From Acidimicrobiaceae bacterium (lineage in GTDB: Bacteria > Actinomycetota > Acidimicrobiia > Acidimicrobiales > Ilumatobacteraceae), in NCBI GenBank assembly GCA_002698945.1, contig NZZV01000108.1, positions 1-32,946 of the forward strand: 32,946 nt of DNA, given 5' to 3'. The position numbers were made by a program, and so were the translations under genes. This document shows, piece by piece, positions 12,969 to 32,346 of this stretch (its first letter is position 1; every line of letters starts with the position of its first letter). The notes beneath the pieces are model-generated. The model saw nothing but the letters and a program-made list of their open reading frames with translations, had not been told where the DNA came from and did no database searches.

Positions 12969-15900
12969 GTGTCTGGCACAGAGACCTCCGGATCGTCGTT
13001 CGGGACCAATTCCTGGCTCGTCGAAGAGATGTACGAGCGCTACGTCGCCGATCCCAACGCGGTGGCCGAATCGTGGCGCGAGTTCTTCGAGGACTACACG
13101 TCGATCTCCGCTCCCGCCCATCGAGAGCAGTCGGCACCCCCCGCCGCCGACACGAACGGATCGGCCCCGGCGGCCGATCTGCCCGCCCCCACCGCAGATG
13201 CTCCGTCCGCGGCACCCGCACCCGCACCCGCACCGGCGCCCGCACCAGCACCGGAGCCGACGAAGGCTGCAGCGACCGAACCCGCCGAGGAGCCGGGTGA
13301 GCTGATCAAGGGGGTCGGCGCCGCGATCGTGCGCAACATGGCGGCGAGTCTCGAGGTGCCGACCGCCACCAGCTTCCGCAACGTGCCGGCCAAGCTGCTC
13401 GAGGTCAACCGCAAGGTGATCAACGGGTACCGCACCCGGTCGGGTCTCGGCAAGGTCAGCTTCACCCACCTCATCGGATACGCCGTCGTGCGCGCGATCG
13501 CCGAGTCGGTACCGAACATGAAGAACGGGTTCGTCGAGGGTGCCGACGGCAAGCCGCGCCTCGTCCGCAACGAGCACGTCAACATGGGACTCGCGGTCGA
13601 CGTCGACAAGGGCGACGGCACCCGCACGCTGGTCGTGCCGGTCCTCAAGGAGGCCGACACCCTCGACTTCGCCGGGTTCCTCGCGGCCTACAACGAGATC
13701 ATCCGCAAGGTCCAGAGCAACAAGCTGACGATCGACGACTACGCCGGTGCCAACGTCAGCCTCACGAACCCGGGCACGATCGGCACGGTCCAGTCGGTGC
13801 CGCGGCTCATGCCCGGCCAAGGGGTCATCATCGGTGTCGGCAACATCGACTACCCGGCGGAGTTCGAAGGTGCCGACAAGCGCAACCTGTCCTCGTTCGG
13901 CGTGTCGAAGGTCGTCACCATCACCAGCACGTACGACCACCGCATCATCCAGGGCGCCGAATCGGGCCTGTTCCTGAAGCGAGTGCACGAACTGCTGCTC
14001 GGCGAGCACGGCTTCTACGAACAGATCTTCCACGACCTCGACATGCCGTACGAGGCGGTCAAGTGGCGGCCCGACACGAACCCGATCGATCACGAGGAGG
14101 CGATGCTCGCCAAGCAGATGGCGGTCGCCAAGCTCATCCGCGTCCATCGCGTCCGCGGCCACCTCATCGCCGACCTCGACCCGCTGCACTGGAAAGAGCC
14201 GCACACCCCGGTCGAACTCGATCCAGCCACGTACGGGTTGACGATCTGGGACCTCGATCGCGAGTTCCTCACCGACGGCGTCGGCGGCCGCGACAAGATG
14301 TCGCTCGGCGACCTGCTGGGCGTGCTACGCGACGCATACTGCCGCACCATCGGCGTCGAGTACATGCACATCCAGAACACCGAGGAACAGCGGTGGATCC
14401 AGGAGCAGGTCGAGACCAAGCCGCCGACGTTCGACAAGGACCAGAAGATGCGGATCCTCGAGCGGCTCAACGCCGCCGAGGCGTTCGAGAAGTTCCTCGC
14501 GACGAAGTACGTCGGCACGAAGCGGTTCGGGATCGAAGGCGCCGAGTCGGCGATCCCCATCCTCGACGAGATCCTGTCGCATGCCGCCGACGACGGCCTC
14601 GACGGCTCGGTGCTCGGCATGGCGCACCGCGGTCGTCTCAACGTGCTGTCGAACATCGTCGGCAAGAGCTACGAGGCGATCTTCTCCGAGTTCGAGGGGC
14701 ACGTCGACCCGAACACGGTGCAGGGGTCCGGCGACGTCAAGTACCACCTCGGCGCGACGGGGAAGTACCACAGCCCCTCGGGTGCCGACATCAAGGTCGA
14801 ACTCGCCGCCAACCCGAGCCATCTCGAGACGGTCGATCCGATCGTCATGGGCATGGTCCGTGCGCAGCAGGACCAGATCGAACCGATGGGGGCCTTCTCG
14901 GTCCTGCCGCTGCTCATCCACGGTGACGCAGCGTTCGCCGGCCAGGGTGTCGTCGCCGAGTGCCTCGCCATGAGCGACATCGGCGGGTATCGCATCGGCG
15001 GCACGGTCCACCTGATCATCAACAACCAGATCGGCTTCACGACCGCGCCCGAGTGGAGCCGGTCGTCGATGTACTGCTCCGACGTCGCGAAGACGGTCCA
15101 GGCGCCGATCTTCCACGTCAACGGCGACGATCCGGAAGCGTGCGTGCGCGTGGCCCGACTCGCCTGGGAGTACCGCCAGAAATTCCACAAGGACGTCGTC
15201 ATCGACATGGTGTGCTACCGCCGCCACGGTCACAACGAGGGCGACGACCCGAGCTACACCCAGCCCCTCATGTACAAGGCGATCGCCGAGCGTCGCAGCG
15301 TTCGCAAGATCTACGTCGAGACGCTCGTCAAGCGGGGCGACATCACCGTCGAGGAGGCCGAGCAGGCGCTGGAGGACTTCCAGAGCAAGCTGCAGGTGGC
15401 CCTCGACGAGACCCGTTCGCGCGGCGGCGAGGCCCACAAGGTGCCCAAGCCGCCCAAGCCGCTCGGCGTGCTGCCCCACATCCCGACCGGCGTCGAACGC
15501 GACACGCTCGAGCGGATCTTCCGGCAGCTCACCAACTACCCCGAGGGCTTCACCCCGCACCCGAAGCTCGCGCGCCAGTTCGAGACCCGGACCAAGCAGT
15601 TCGACGAGCACCAGGAGGTCGACTGGGCGACCGCCGAGGCGCTGGCGATCGGCTCGCTCGTGCTCGAGGGCGCCCCGGTCAGGCTCGCCGGTGAGGACTC
15701 ACGGCGCGGCACCTTCAGCCAGCGGCACGCCGCGCTGGTCGACTTCGAGACCGGCCAGCCGTGGATCCCGCTCGCCGACATCGATGGCGCTCAGGCGAAC
15801 TTCTGGGTCTACGACTCGCTGCTCTCCGAGTACGCGGCGCTCGGCTACGAGTACGGCTACGCCCACTCGAATCCCGAGGCGCTCGTCGTCTGGGAGGCCC

Positions 15901-16649
15901 AGTTCGGCGACTTCGTCAACGGTGCCCAGATCATCATCGACCAGTACATCGTCGCCGCCGAGGACAAGTGGGGCCAGCGCAACGGCGTCGTGCTCCTCCT
16001 CCCACACGGCTACGAAGGCCAGGGCCCCGAGCACTCGTCGGCGCGCATCGAACGCTTCCTCACGCTCGCGGCCGAGGACAACATGCAGCTCGTCAACTGC
16101 ACGACGGCCCGCCAGTACTTCCACCTGCTCCGGCGCCAGGTCCATCAGGAGCGCCAGACGCCGCTGGTCGTGTTCACGCCGAAGCAGGGCCTGCGGATGA
16201 AGCAGACCCGCAGCCACATCGACGAGCTGACGATGGGTTCGTTCGAAGAGGTGCTGGACGATCCGCACGTGACCGACCCCGATGCGGTCGCCCGCATCGT
16301 GTTCTGTTCGGGCAAGGTCGCGTGGGACGCGATGTCGGAGCGCGACGCTCGCGGTGCGCCGCTCGCCGTCGTGCGCGTCGAGCAGTTGTTCCCGTTGCCG
16401 ACCGAGCAGATGCTGTCGATCGTGCAGAACCGCTACCCGAACGCTCGCGAGCTCGTGTGGCTCCAGGAGGAGCCCGAGAACATGGGTCCCTGGCACTTCA
16501 TCGAGCACCACACCTGGCGGGTGAAGGAGCTGGGCTACGACCTGCGCCACGTCGCACGCGTCGAGTCGGGGAGCCCGGCCACCGGTTCGAAGACGGTCCA
16601 CGACCAGGAGCACGCCGACCTGATGGACGGCATCTTCGAGGGCCTCTGA
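12969..16649 (+). CDS. kgd: Multifunctional 2-oxoglutarate dehydrogenase/decarboxylase (E1-E2 fusion)
   Basis: A 1226-residue protein with the actinobacterial Kgd layout. An E1-type N-terminal helix (SWLVEEMYERYVADPNAVAESWREFF) is joined by a Pro-Ala linker to an E2 acyltransferase-type catalytic domain (about 110-355) whose active His lies in YDHRIIQGAESG (about 324). There is no lipoyl domain. The E1 part follows, with MAHRGRLNVL (about 551) and the thiamine-diphosphate motif GDAAFAGQG to NNQIGF (about 652-690). Kgd decarboxylates 2-oxoglutarate in the TCA cycle and works with lipoylated E2 and E3 partners encoded elsewhere. In mycobacteria it is controlled by GarA and acetyl-CoA; whether that applies here is unknown. 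Confidence 0.96.
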   Translation: MSGTETSGSSFGTNSWLVEEMYERYVADPNAVAESWREFFEDYTSISAPAHREQSAPPAADTNGSAPAADLPAPTADAPSAAPAPAPAPAPAPAPEPTKAAATEPAEEPGELIKGVGAAIVRNMAASLEVPTATSFRNVPAKLLEVNRKVINGYRTRSGLGKVSFTHLIGYAVVRAIAESVPNMKNGFVEGADGKPRLVRNEHVNMGLAVDVDKGDGTRTLVVPVLKEADTLDFAGFLAAYNEIIRKVQSNKLTIDDYAGANVSLTNPGTIGTVQSVPRLMPGQGVIIGVGNIDYPAEFEGADKRNLSSFGVSKVVTITSTYDHRIIQGAESGLFLKRVHELLLGEHGFYEQIFHDLDMPYEAVKWRPDTNPIDHEEAMLAKQMAVAKLIRVHRVRGHLIADLDPLHWKEPHTPVELDPATYGLTIWDLDREFLTDGVGGRDKMSLGDLLGVLRDAYCRTIGVEYMHIQNTEEQRWIQEQVETKPPTFDKDQKMRILERLNAAEAFEKFLATKYVGTKRFGIEGAESAIPILDEILSHAADDGLDGSVLGMAHRGRLNVLSNIVGKSYEAIFSEFEGHVDPNTVQGSGDVKYHLGATGKYHSPSGADIKVELAANPSHLETVDPIVMGMVRAQQDQIEPMGAFSVLPLLIHGDAAFAGQGVVAECLAMSDIGGYRIGGTVHLIINNQIGFTTAPEWSRSSMYCSDVAKTVQAPIFHVNGDDPEACVRVARLAWEYRQKFHKDVVIDMVCYRRHGHNEGDDPSYTQPLMYKAIAERRSVRKIYVETLVKRGDITVEEAEQALEDFQSKLQVALDETRSRGGEAHKVPKPPKPLGVLPHIPTGVERDTLERIFRQLTNYPEGFTPHPKLARQFETRTKQFDEHQEVDWATAEALAIGSLVLEGAPVRLAGEDSRRGTFSQRHAALVDFETGQPWIPLADIDGAQANFWVYDSLLSEYAALGYEYGYAHSNPEALVVWEAQFGDFVNGAQIIIDQYIVAAEDKWGQRNGVVLLLPHGYEGQGPEHSSARIERFLTLAAEDNMQLVNCTTARQYFHLLRRQVHQERQTPLVVFTPKQGLRMKQTRSHIDELTMGSFEEVLDDPHVTDPDAVARIVFCSGKVAWDAMSERDARGAPLAVVRVEQLFPLPTEQMLSIVQNRYPNARELVWLQEEPENMGPWHFIEHHTWRVKELGYDLRHVARVESGSPATGSKTVHDQEHADLMDGIFEGL

Positions 16650-16750: not shown

Positions 16751-18187
16751 ATGACACAACAGAACAGCAAACCTCGCCTCTTCGTCGTCGATGGATCGAA
16801 CATCGCCACGGAAGGTCGGTCCAAGCCCAGCCTCGAACAGCTCACCGAAGCGGTCGACGCCTTTCGTGAGGAGTACCCCGACGTCGATGTGACCGTCGTG
16901 GTCGACGCCACGTTCGGACACCGCATCGCCAAGAAGGAAGTCAAGGACTTCGATCGGGCCGTCGCCAACAACGAACTCGTCACCCCGCCCGCCGGAGCGG
17001 TCGGGCGTGGCGACGCCTTCATCCTCGCCATCGCCGACAAGGCCGGTGCCGGGGTGTTCTCGAACGACTCGTTCCAGGAGTTCCACGGTGACTACGGCTG
17101 GCTCTTCGAACACGGCCGGCTGATCGGTGGCAAGCCCGTCCCGCACGTCGGCTGGGTGTTCGTCGACCGCAACCCGGTTCGCGGACCCAAGAGCCGTGAG
17201 TCGATCCGGGCGGCGAAGAAGGCGGAATCGAACGACGAACCGGCGACCGCCGCGAAAGAACGCGCCCAGCGGCGTGTCCGCAAGAAGAAGGCCGCCGCGT
17301 CCGAGCCGTCCGCCGAGCGACCGCCGAAGGACGAACAAGGCGAATCTCCGTCCGCTGATCAGTGGTCCTCCGATCAGCAGTCCGCGGAGCCGGCCGACCG
17401 TTCGCAGTCCGGCGGCGGCAAGCCCGACGAGGGCAAGTCGTCCAAGCACGTCAACGAGTTGGGGAACTTCCTCGACTTCGTGGAAAAGTACGCCGTCGGC
17501 CAGACGATCACGGTCAAGGTCTCGAGCTACTCGTCGCACGGCGCCTACGCCGACTTCGGAGACGTCCAGGTCTACATCCCGCTCCGATTGATGGCCGACC
17601 CGGCGCCGACGAGTGCGCGCAAGGCCGTCACGACCGGCGACGAGATCGACGTGGTCGTCGCCGCCTTCTCGCCCGAACGACGCAGCATCGACGTGGCGTT
17701 GCCGGCGATGTCGGACCAGATCGAGTCCGGCGTCGGACAGGCGGACCGCGATGATCGGCCTGATCGGGCTGATCGGCAGTCGGCGGACGATTCGGCGAAC
17801 CGGCCGAAGAAGCGTCGTCCGTCGCGTCGGCGTGGCAAGCAGTCGACGGCCGAGTCGCCGAGCAGCGAGCCGGCCGAGCAGACCTCCGACGAACAGCAGT
17901 CCGGTGCGAGCGACGACACGCCGGCCGAGGCCGCACCGCCGAAGAAGCGGGCAGCTCGCAAGAAGGCTGCCGCCAAGAAGGCTCCGGCCAAGAAGGCCGC
18001 CGCGAAGAAGGGTGCCGCCAAGAAGGCTGCTGCGAAGAAGGCTCCGGCCAAGAAGGCCGCCGCGAAGAAGGGTGCCGCCAAGAAGGCTGCTGCGAAGAAG
18101 GCCCCGGCCAAGAAGACCGCCGCCCGCAAGCGCGCCGCCAAGAAGTCCGCTGCACCCGCCGGCGAGACCGGGGCGAACGACTCGTGA
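16751..18187 (+). CDS. NYN-type nuclease / S1 RNA-binding / histone-H1-like tail fusion
   Basis: A 478-residue protein of three parts. Residues 8 to about 135 form a PIN-like NYN (Zc3h12a-type) ribonuclease domain with acidic residues D14 (FVVDGSN), D52 (VVVDAT), D88 (GRGDAF) and D106 (FSNDSF). A charged linker leads to an S1-type OB fold (about 247-320, YAVGQTITVKVSSYSSHGAYADFGDVQVYIPL). The C-terminal 80 residues are Ala/Lys-rich repeats (KKAAAKKAPAKK) like histone H1 or HupB tails. The parts together suggest an RNA-processing nuclease tethered to RNA or nucleoid; this is inferred from domains. Its stop overlaps the start of the exonuclease III gene as GTGA, so they are co-translated. Confidence 0.87.
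   Translation: MTQQNSKPRLFVVDGSNIATEGRSKPSLEQLTEAVDAFREEYPDVDVTVVVDATFGHRIAKKEVKDFDRAVANNELVTPPAGAVGRGDAFILAIADKAGAGVFSNDSFQEFHGDYGWLFEHGRLIGGKPVPHVGWVFVDRNPVRGPKSRESIRAAKKAESNDEPATAAKERAQRRVRKKKAAASEPSAERPPKDEQGESPSADQWSSDQQSAEPADRSQSGGGKPDEGKSSKHVNELGNFLDFVEKYAVGQTITVKVSSYSSHGAYADFGDVQVYIPLRLMADPAPTSARKAVTTGDEIDVVVAAFSPERRSIDVALPAMSDQIESGVGQADRDDRPDRADRQSADDSANRPKKRRPSRRRGKQSTAESPSSEPAEQTSDEQQSGASDDTPAEAAPPKKRAARKKAAAKKAPAKKAAAKKGAAKKAAAKKAPAKKAAAKKGAAKKAAAKKAPAKKTAARKRAAKKSAAPAGETGANDS
17941..18120 (+). repeat. 60-bp tandem coding repeat in the Ala/Lys tail
   Basis: The blocks 18001-18060 and 18061-18120 differ by two bases, and 17941-18000 is a degenerate third unit. Each encodes 20 residues built on KKAAAKKAPAKK. 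Length variation between strains is likely. Confidence 0.85.
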
Positions 18188-18960
18188 GGGTCGTGACCTG
18201 GAACATCAACTCGCTGCGAGCGCGTCTCGAGCGGGTCGAGGAATGGGTCGCCGAGGTGCAGCCCGACGTGCTGTGCCTCCAGGAGACCAAGCTCGCCGAC
18301 GACGCCTTCCCGGCTCTGTCGTTCGAAGCACTCGGCTACGAATGTGCCCACTACGGGCAGGGCCAGTGGAACGGGGTCGCCATCGTCTCGAAGGTGGGCC
18401 TCGACGACGTCGTGGCCAACTTCGCCGAGGGCATCGAGCCCGATCCCGACGCCCGCATCATCACGGCGACGTGCGGCGGCGTGCGCGTGGCGTGCTGCTA
18501 CGTCCCCAACGGTCGGGCGCTCGACGACGACCACTACGTCTACAAGCTGAGCTGGCTCGAGCGACTGCTCGACCACGTGCGGCAGGAGAACGATCCGAGC
18601 GGCGACGTGATCGTCACCGGGGACTTCAACATCGCACCGACCGACGCCGACGTGTACGACATCCGCAAGTTCGCCGGCGCGACCCACGTCAGCGAGCCCG
18701 AACGCGAACGACTGCAGGCGCTGTGCGACTGGGGTCTCACGGATCTGTTCCGTCACCAGCACGCCGACGCGGATCGCGTCTACTCGTGGTGGGACTACCG
18801 CGGTGGCGACTTCCACCAGGGACGTGGTCTGCGGATCGACCTCGTGCTCGGGAGCGCGTCGCTCGTCGATCGCGTCGACTGGGCGGTCGTCGACCGCAAC
18901 GCCCGCAAGGGCAAGCAGCCGAGCGACCACGCCCCGGTCATCGTCGACCTGACCATCTGA
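18184..18960 (+). CDS. xth: Exodeoxyribonuclease III / AP endonuclease family protein
   Basis: A 258-residue member of the exonuclease III/AP endonuclease family, which cleaves DNA 5' of abasic sites and trims 3' blocks in base-excision repair. The active-site motifs are WNINSLRAR (metal and phosphate site), LQETKL with E34, GDFNIAP, the late LRIDLVLGS, and SDHAPV with the catalytic His. The length and motif spacing are normal. The GTG start overlaps the previous stop by four bases (GTGA). Together with mutY earlier in the window it represents base-excision repair, though not in one operon. Transcription should end in the palindromic element just downstream. Confidence 0.94.
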   Translation: MRVVTWNINSLRARLERVEEWVAEVQPDVLCLQETKLADDAFPALSFEALGYECAHYGQGQWNGVAIVSKVGLDDVVANFAEGIEPDPDARIITATCGGVRVACCYVPNGRALDDDHYVYKLSWLERLLDHVRQENDPSGDVIVTGDFNIAPTDADVYDIRKFAGATHVSEPERERLQALCDWGLTDLFRHQHADADRVYSWWDYRGGDFHQGRGLRIDLVLGSASLVDRVDWAVVDRNARKGKQPSDHAPVIVDLTI

Positions 18961-18970
18961 AGCGGTCGGT

Positions 18971-19054
18971 GTCGGTTGAGGTCAGACCCCAACCGACATG
19001 GTTGCGGAACCTGGCGCTGGTCGGGGTGTCGGTTGGGGTCTGACCTCAACCGAC
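18971..19054. repeat. Palindrome-pair intergenic element, copy 2
   Basis: Two perfect 28-bp inverted arms (18971-18998 and 19027-19054) with a 28-bp spacer. Each arm is also an imperfect palindrome: GTCGGTTG, then GGTCAGACC, then CAACCGAC. It fills the gap between the convergent exonuclease and helicase genes. The right arm contains the TGA stop of the helicase (19046-19048). It may act as a bidirectional terminator. Confidence 0.92.
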
Positions 19055-32261: not shown

Positions 32262-32346
32262 GTCGGATGAGGTCAGACCCCAACCGACACGGCGGCGGTT
32301 GATCCCGAGCAACTCCGATGTCGGTTGGGGTCTGACCTCATCCGAC
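32262..32346. repeat. Palindrome-pair intergenic element, copy 3
   Basis: Two perfect 28-bp inverted arms (32262-32289 and 32319-32346) with a 29-bp spacer. They differ from copy 2 by a T-to-A change (GGTTGAGG to GGATGAGG) that is matched in the opposite arm. The element lies 9 bp after the patatin stop and ends 8 bp before the DoxX -10 box. TCTGAC within its right arm (32331-32336) is 18 bp from that box and could serve as a -35. Confidence 0.92.

Follow-up and report, generated by a model that had tools for sequence, protein, structure and literature searches.

This study analyzed a 32,946-nucleotide stretch of an Acidimicrobiaceae bacterium (contig NZZV01000108.1; hereafter the window), which contains a gene whose product joins a NYN domain, an S1 domain, and an Ala/Lys-rich tail in one polypeptide (hereafter NYN-S1). 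The features of this gene and its neighbors are as follows:

12969-16649, forward strand: upstream gene, alpha-ketoglutarate dehydrogenase E1-like, named from reading the sequence and not from a family search
16751-18187, forward strand: NYN, linker, S1, and basic tail gene; open reading frame of 478 amino acids with an ATG start
16751-17182, forward strand: NYN (Zc3h12a/Regnase-type, PIN-like) nuclease domain, amino acids 1-144 (Pfam at 9-112, AlphaFold2, Foldseek)
16790-16792, forward strand: D14, putative metal ligand, aligned with Regnase-1 D141 (profile alignment; invariant, 60/60)
16904-16906, forward strand: D52, invariant acidic residue (60/60), outside the four Regnase Asp residues by profile alignment
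17012-17014, forward strand: D88, aligned with Regnase-1 D226 (profile alignment; invariant, 60/60)
17066-17068, forward strand: D106, aligned with Regnase-1 D244 (profile alignment; invariant, 60/60)
17183-17455, forward strand: NYN-S1 linker of approximately 90 amino acids, variable and poorly conserved; site of the basic segment in lineages f22, f28, and f103
17456-17710, forward strand: S1 (OB-fold) domain, amino acids 236-320 (Pfam at 247-315, AlphaFold2, Foldseek)
17711-17929, forward strand: spacer of mixed charge between S1 and the Ala/Lys-rich tail, poorly conserved (from the translation)
17930-18154, forward strand: Ala/Lys-rich, histone-H1-like tail, amino acids 394-468 (Pfam HC2; tandem array at 17959-18153)
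18184-18960, forward strand: xth, exonuclease III (NCBIfam TIGR00633, E 1.2e-76), overlapping the end of the NYN-S1 gene by 4 nt

An earlier note on this DNA, made from the letters alone, had named the three parts as a NYN nuclease, an S1 domain, and a histone-H1-like tail, and all three scored above the Pfam cut-offs: RNase_Zc3h12a NYN (PF11977) at amino acids 9-112 (E 2.8e-7, 30.8 bits against a cut-off of 23), S1 (PF00575) at 247-315 (E 1.6e-6, 28.8 bits against 22), and HC2 histone-H1-like (PF07382) at 394-468 (E 8.8e-12, 46 bits against 40). The HC2 match is compositional and is thus read as likeness and not as descent. No match to the Rae1/YacP family (NYN_YacP, PF05991) was obtained in Pfam at E values up to 10. 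Each part is already known, and what appears new is their combination in the order NYN, S1, basic arm. Neither a protein joining NYN and S1 nor that order was found in the literature searched, which covered few subscription journals; within this coverage, the claim that no characterized protein has this order met no counterexample, and the protein is apparently uncharacterized.

The AlphaFold2 model of the NYN domain, based on 60 orthologous NYN domains, had a pLDDT of 89.6. Its best solved matches in Foldseek were the PIN domains of Regnase, ZC3H12B, and ZC3H12C (E 6.5e-7, TM 0.71), the Regnase/ZC3H12 chains being matched with a probability of 1.00 and TM scores of 0.66-0.72; the PIN domain of KHNYN and PRORP were also among the best hits. 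The S1 model (pLDDT 97.0) most closely matched ribosomal protein S1 domains from Vibrio and M. tuberculosis, and a profile search of PDB sequences agreed with Foldseek for both domains. Within the genomes, the S1 matches ranking next fell in frames of 470-527 amino acids that contain S1 repeats, a length that fits ribosomal protein S1. The PIN-like and OB folds on which the earlier reading depended were therefore both found in the AlphaFold2 models.

The catalytic Asp residues of Regnase-1 are D141, D225, D226, and D244 (PMC5362230). The profile alignment pairs D14 with D141, D88 with D226, and D106 with D244, whereas the position of D225 is occupied by G87. The proposal that four acidic residues are in place consequently holds for three canonical Asp residues but not for the fourth, although D52 and E110 are, like the three, invariant in 60/60 orthologs, in which the NYN domain has 41 invariant columns. 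Three active-site Asp residues have also been reported for the NYN domains of a Bacteroides CRISPR-associated protein and MARF1 (PMC11346440).

The NYN-S1 gene is strongly conserved and mostly single-copy. Of 61 genomes of close relatives, counting this one, 57 carried it, as did 94 of the 240 good genomes from the Acidimicrobiia, a class of soil- and water-dwelling bacteria, among which some families of the Acidimicrobiales were without it. A 397-genome sample of the phylum contained the gene only in the same order and in one genome of the same class, with no credible match outside the Acidimicrobiia; two weak matches in other Actinobacteria (L059 and L060) were rejected as chance because the longest open reading frames there read as unrelated proteins. 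When 85,462 species genomes were scanned, the best 80 matches belonged to the Acidimicrobiia, to unclassified Actinomycetota, or to genomes with seemingly mistaken labels (Bifidobacterium breve and Acidobacteria MAGs). Comparison with three relatives yielded dN/dS values of approximately 0.06-0.09 for the NYN domain; for S1, the values were approximately 0.12-0.14 against the two nearest relatives and approximately 0.5 against the third. A second NYN-like frame, shorter at approximately 150-270 amino acids and 28-35% identical where an identity was given, was observed in some genomes of the order that also carry the NYN-S1 gene (G054, G046, G372, G058, and others).

We further analyzed the tail, which had been described as an Ala/Lys stretch of 80 residues. 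An HC2-like tail is present, but its Ala/Lys-rich part spans approximately 75 residues, encoded by a tandem array with a period of 60 bp (3.2 copies, 91% match). Both NYN and S1 were present in 67/67 complete orthologs. The expectation that orthologs would also carry the tail was borne out in 60 of these, with a C-terminal extension of at least 25 residues, but not in the other seven (five from f22, one from f28, and one from f103), which stop at or just past S1 and have a strongly basic stretch in the NYN-S1 linker instead. Tail length across orthologs ranged from 0 to more than 390 residues, and the sequence was also highly variable. Nevertheless, a basic stretch in either the tail or the linker, defined as a net charge of +8 or more in a 40-residue window, was found in 67/67 complete orthologs. 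Because the tail-less orthologs keep the basic stretch in the linker, conservation applies to basic charge and low complexity and not to the position or sequence of a tail. At least 10 Lys residues within 40 were present in the NYN-S1 protein at 55/79 loci, compared with 0/360 gene-like open reading frames of the same loci, which were chosen by a codon-position GC rule and not by a gene finder. Retention across many families, low dN/dS, and a Lys-rich stretch without equal among neighboring frames argue that the gene is not a chance open reading frame.

The 4-nt overlap with the exonuclease III gene noted earlier is present in the sequence, the NYN-S1 stop codon TGA lying at 18185-18187 and the GTG start of xth at 18184. 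In the Ilumatobacteraceae, exonuclease III was next downstream in nearly all loci with sequence there, starting, where found, between 4 bases inside and approximately 100 bases past the NYN-S1 gene. Outside this family, it was often separated by hundreds of bases, placed on the opposite side and strand, or outside the stretch compared, with short contigs accounting for part of these absences. Across all loci, exonuclease III lay downstream on the same strand in 45/79, and in five it was found upstream in the reverse orientation; the alpha-ketoglutarate-dehydrogenase-like homologue, upstream on the same strand in 59/79, is the more widely kept neighbor. In f22, it is the upstream gene that the NYN-S1 gene adjoins or overlaps; outside the order, the neighbors were genes for AMP-binding enzymes, a CoA transferase, and an FAD oxidase, and no RNA or DNA theme was seen among them. 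The suggested link between RNA and DNA processing through coupling to exonuclease III is thus weak, that neighbor being steady mainly within the family, and we give a joint RNA-DNA pathway little weight because the neighbor links shift between families.

The xth gene and a UvrD-like gene converge on a REP/BIME-like inverted repeat with perfect 28-nt arms (18971-18998 and 19027-19054), which recurs in the window at 32262-32288 and 32320-32346. Approximately 100 copies per strand were counted in this genome with up to 3 mismatches, mostly as opposite pairs approximately 57 bases apart; the closest relative, G001, has many copies too, whereas the other eight members of the genus searched have almost none or none.

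Several roles for the protein were considered and set aside. RNase E/G was present in 51/53 genomes and RNase J in 53/53, with or without the NYN-S1 gene, and a role as substitute for a standard RNase was accordingly rejected. NYN_YacP (PF05991) proteins coexist with the NYN-S1 protein in many of the same genomes, including this one, where the match is on another contig; as they neither track nor alternate with the NYN-S1 gene, alternation with YacP/Rae1 was rejected as well. A defense or mobile-element origin is disfavored because the searches of PADLOC, PHROGs, viral contigs, and plasmids returned no match to the protein.

The architecture, the folds, the invariant Asp residues, the purifying selection, and the retained basic charge, all computed here, point to a metal-dependent single-strand endoribonuclease of the Zc3h12a/NYN family that would grip its substrate through S1 and a polycationic arm, a reading to which we assign a probability of approximately 0.62. 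The enzyme would be chromosomally encoded and would serve ordinary, accessory housekeeping RNA turnover in much of the Acidimicrobiales, adding to RNase E/G and RNase J without replacing either. The NYN domain would be the cutter, presumably with a bound metal, and the S1 domain, being nearest to ribosomal protein S1 domains, would grip single-stranded RNA. The flexible arm, mostly C-terminal and sometimes in the linker, may add sequence-independent affinity for RNA, the ribosome, or DNA. We infer RNA as the substrate from the NYN family and the S1 domain, and we keep it at that strength because the wider PIN-like superfamily also includes DNA nucleases. Counting against this explanation are the Gly at the position of Regnase D225 and a tail that is a near-identical tandem array and varies greatly between orthologs. 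The arm may also prolong the stay of the enzyme on its substrate, in the way that actinobacterial topoisomerase I (TopA) is held on DNA by its lysine repeats, which raise its processivity (PMC7398561).

A narrower form of the same explanation, in which the bS1-like domain and the basic arm dock on ribosomes or polysomes and the enzyme cuts mRNA or rRNA there, is tentative, with perhaps one chance in four. It would resemble Rae1/YacP in its working while belonging to another family. The affinity of the S1 domain to those of ribosomal protein S1 is consistent with it, as is the occurrence of AKKA repeats on the ribosomal protein RplV, which binds 23S rRNA (PMC10665949); work cited in PMC11346440 also places the bacterial NYN enzyme Rae1/YacP in ribosome-dependent mRNA decay. 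The occurrence of NYN_YacP proteins beside NYN-S1 in many genomes, without alternation, speaks against this form.

Less likely again is an RNase tethered to the nucleoid, in which the histone-H1-like tail would sit on chromosomal DNA while NYN-S1 cut nascent transcripts or the RNA of R-loops. The AKKA/PAKK tails of HupB, HbhA, and TopA bind DNA, and HbhA has been reported to be nucleoid-associated (PMC10665949); together with the retention of TopA on DNA by its lysine repeats (PMC7398561), the HC2 match above its cut-off, and the exonuclease III overlap within the family, these points favor such tethering. The genome studied here also encodes a wax ester synthase/diacylglycerol acyltransferase (WS/DGAT) with a similar Ala/Lys-rich C-terminal tail (L202:2878-4686, reverse strand, contig C121). 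Because both this enzyme and the rRNA-binding RplV have such tails, an Ala/Lys tail is not diagnostic of DNA, and the action at the nucleoid or on R-loops that the earlier note had suggested appears weak. The loss of the tail in 7/67 orthologs, although the linker keeps the basic charge, and the limited reach of the exonuclease III linkage also count against it, and we know of no NYN enzyme that cuts RNA inside RNA-DNA hybrids. The HC2 search, by which alone Ala/Lys-tailed proteins of this genome were sought, also returned a fragment at the edge of contig C25 (L201:2-433, forward strand) that consists almost entirely of PAKKKAAAKK-like repeats, is ended by the contig end, and is possibly a HupB-like protein.

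Low-complexity Ala/Lys tails can grow by repeat slippage with little function, and the tail could accordingly be a neutral expansion in a GC-rich genome, NYN-S1 alone being the working enzyme. The near-identical tandem repeats in the DNA and the range of tail lengths suit this explanation, but the basic charge in every complete ortholog, carried by the linker in the orthologs without a tail, and the lack of any such Lys-rich stretch in the 360 neighboring gene-like frames render it improbable. Least probable of all, at about one chance in ten, is a chromatin-tethered Regnase-type RNase that cuts nascent or R-loop RNA and works with a co-translated exonuclease III at DNA damage or transcription conflicts.

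The endoribonuclease reading would add a conserved predicted RNase across much of one bacterial order and offers a natural test of the role of a histone-H1-like arm on an RNA enzyme, for which the lineages with the basic segment in the linker and those with it in the tail form a ready-made comparison. If the arm were to tie the enzyme to DNA, RNA cleavage would be organized on bacterial chromatin.

Among known systems, the Zc3h12a-like NYN family (Regnase-1/MCPIP1, ZC3H12B/C, and KHNYN) provided the best sequence and structure matches and shares the NYN fold and the SND motif, with Asp aligned at three of the four catalytic positions. In contrast to Regnase-1 and KHNYN, the protein described here is bacterial, carries S1 and an Ala/Lys tail, and has Gly at the Asp225 position; neither a CCCH zinc finger nor a KH domain was found in it by Pfam. 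Rae1/YacP of Bacillus subtilis is likewise a bacterial chromosomal NYN protein, an endoribonuclease in RNA decay, but belongs to a different NYN family (PF05991) by Pfam. The CRISPR-associated NYN protein of Bacteroides fragilis is also bacterial with three active-site Asp residues and cuts single-stranded RNA with Mn2+, as the NYN domain of MARF1 does with Mn2+ or Mg2+ (PMC11346440); it resides in a type III CRISPR locus, whereas the NYN-S1 protein has no defense-model match. The tails of TopA, HupB, and HbhA are Ala/Lys-rich, histone-H1-like C-terminal repeats similar to the one described here, but they sit on DNA-binding or DNA-relaxing proteins and not on a predicted RNase. RNase E/G likewise combines a nuclease with an S1 domain in one chain, which in many bacteria also has a charged, disordered region, although its catalytic domain is unrelated to the NYN domain of the NYN-S1 protein.
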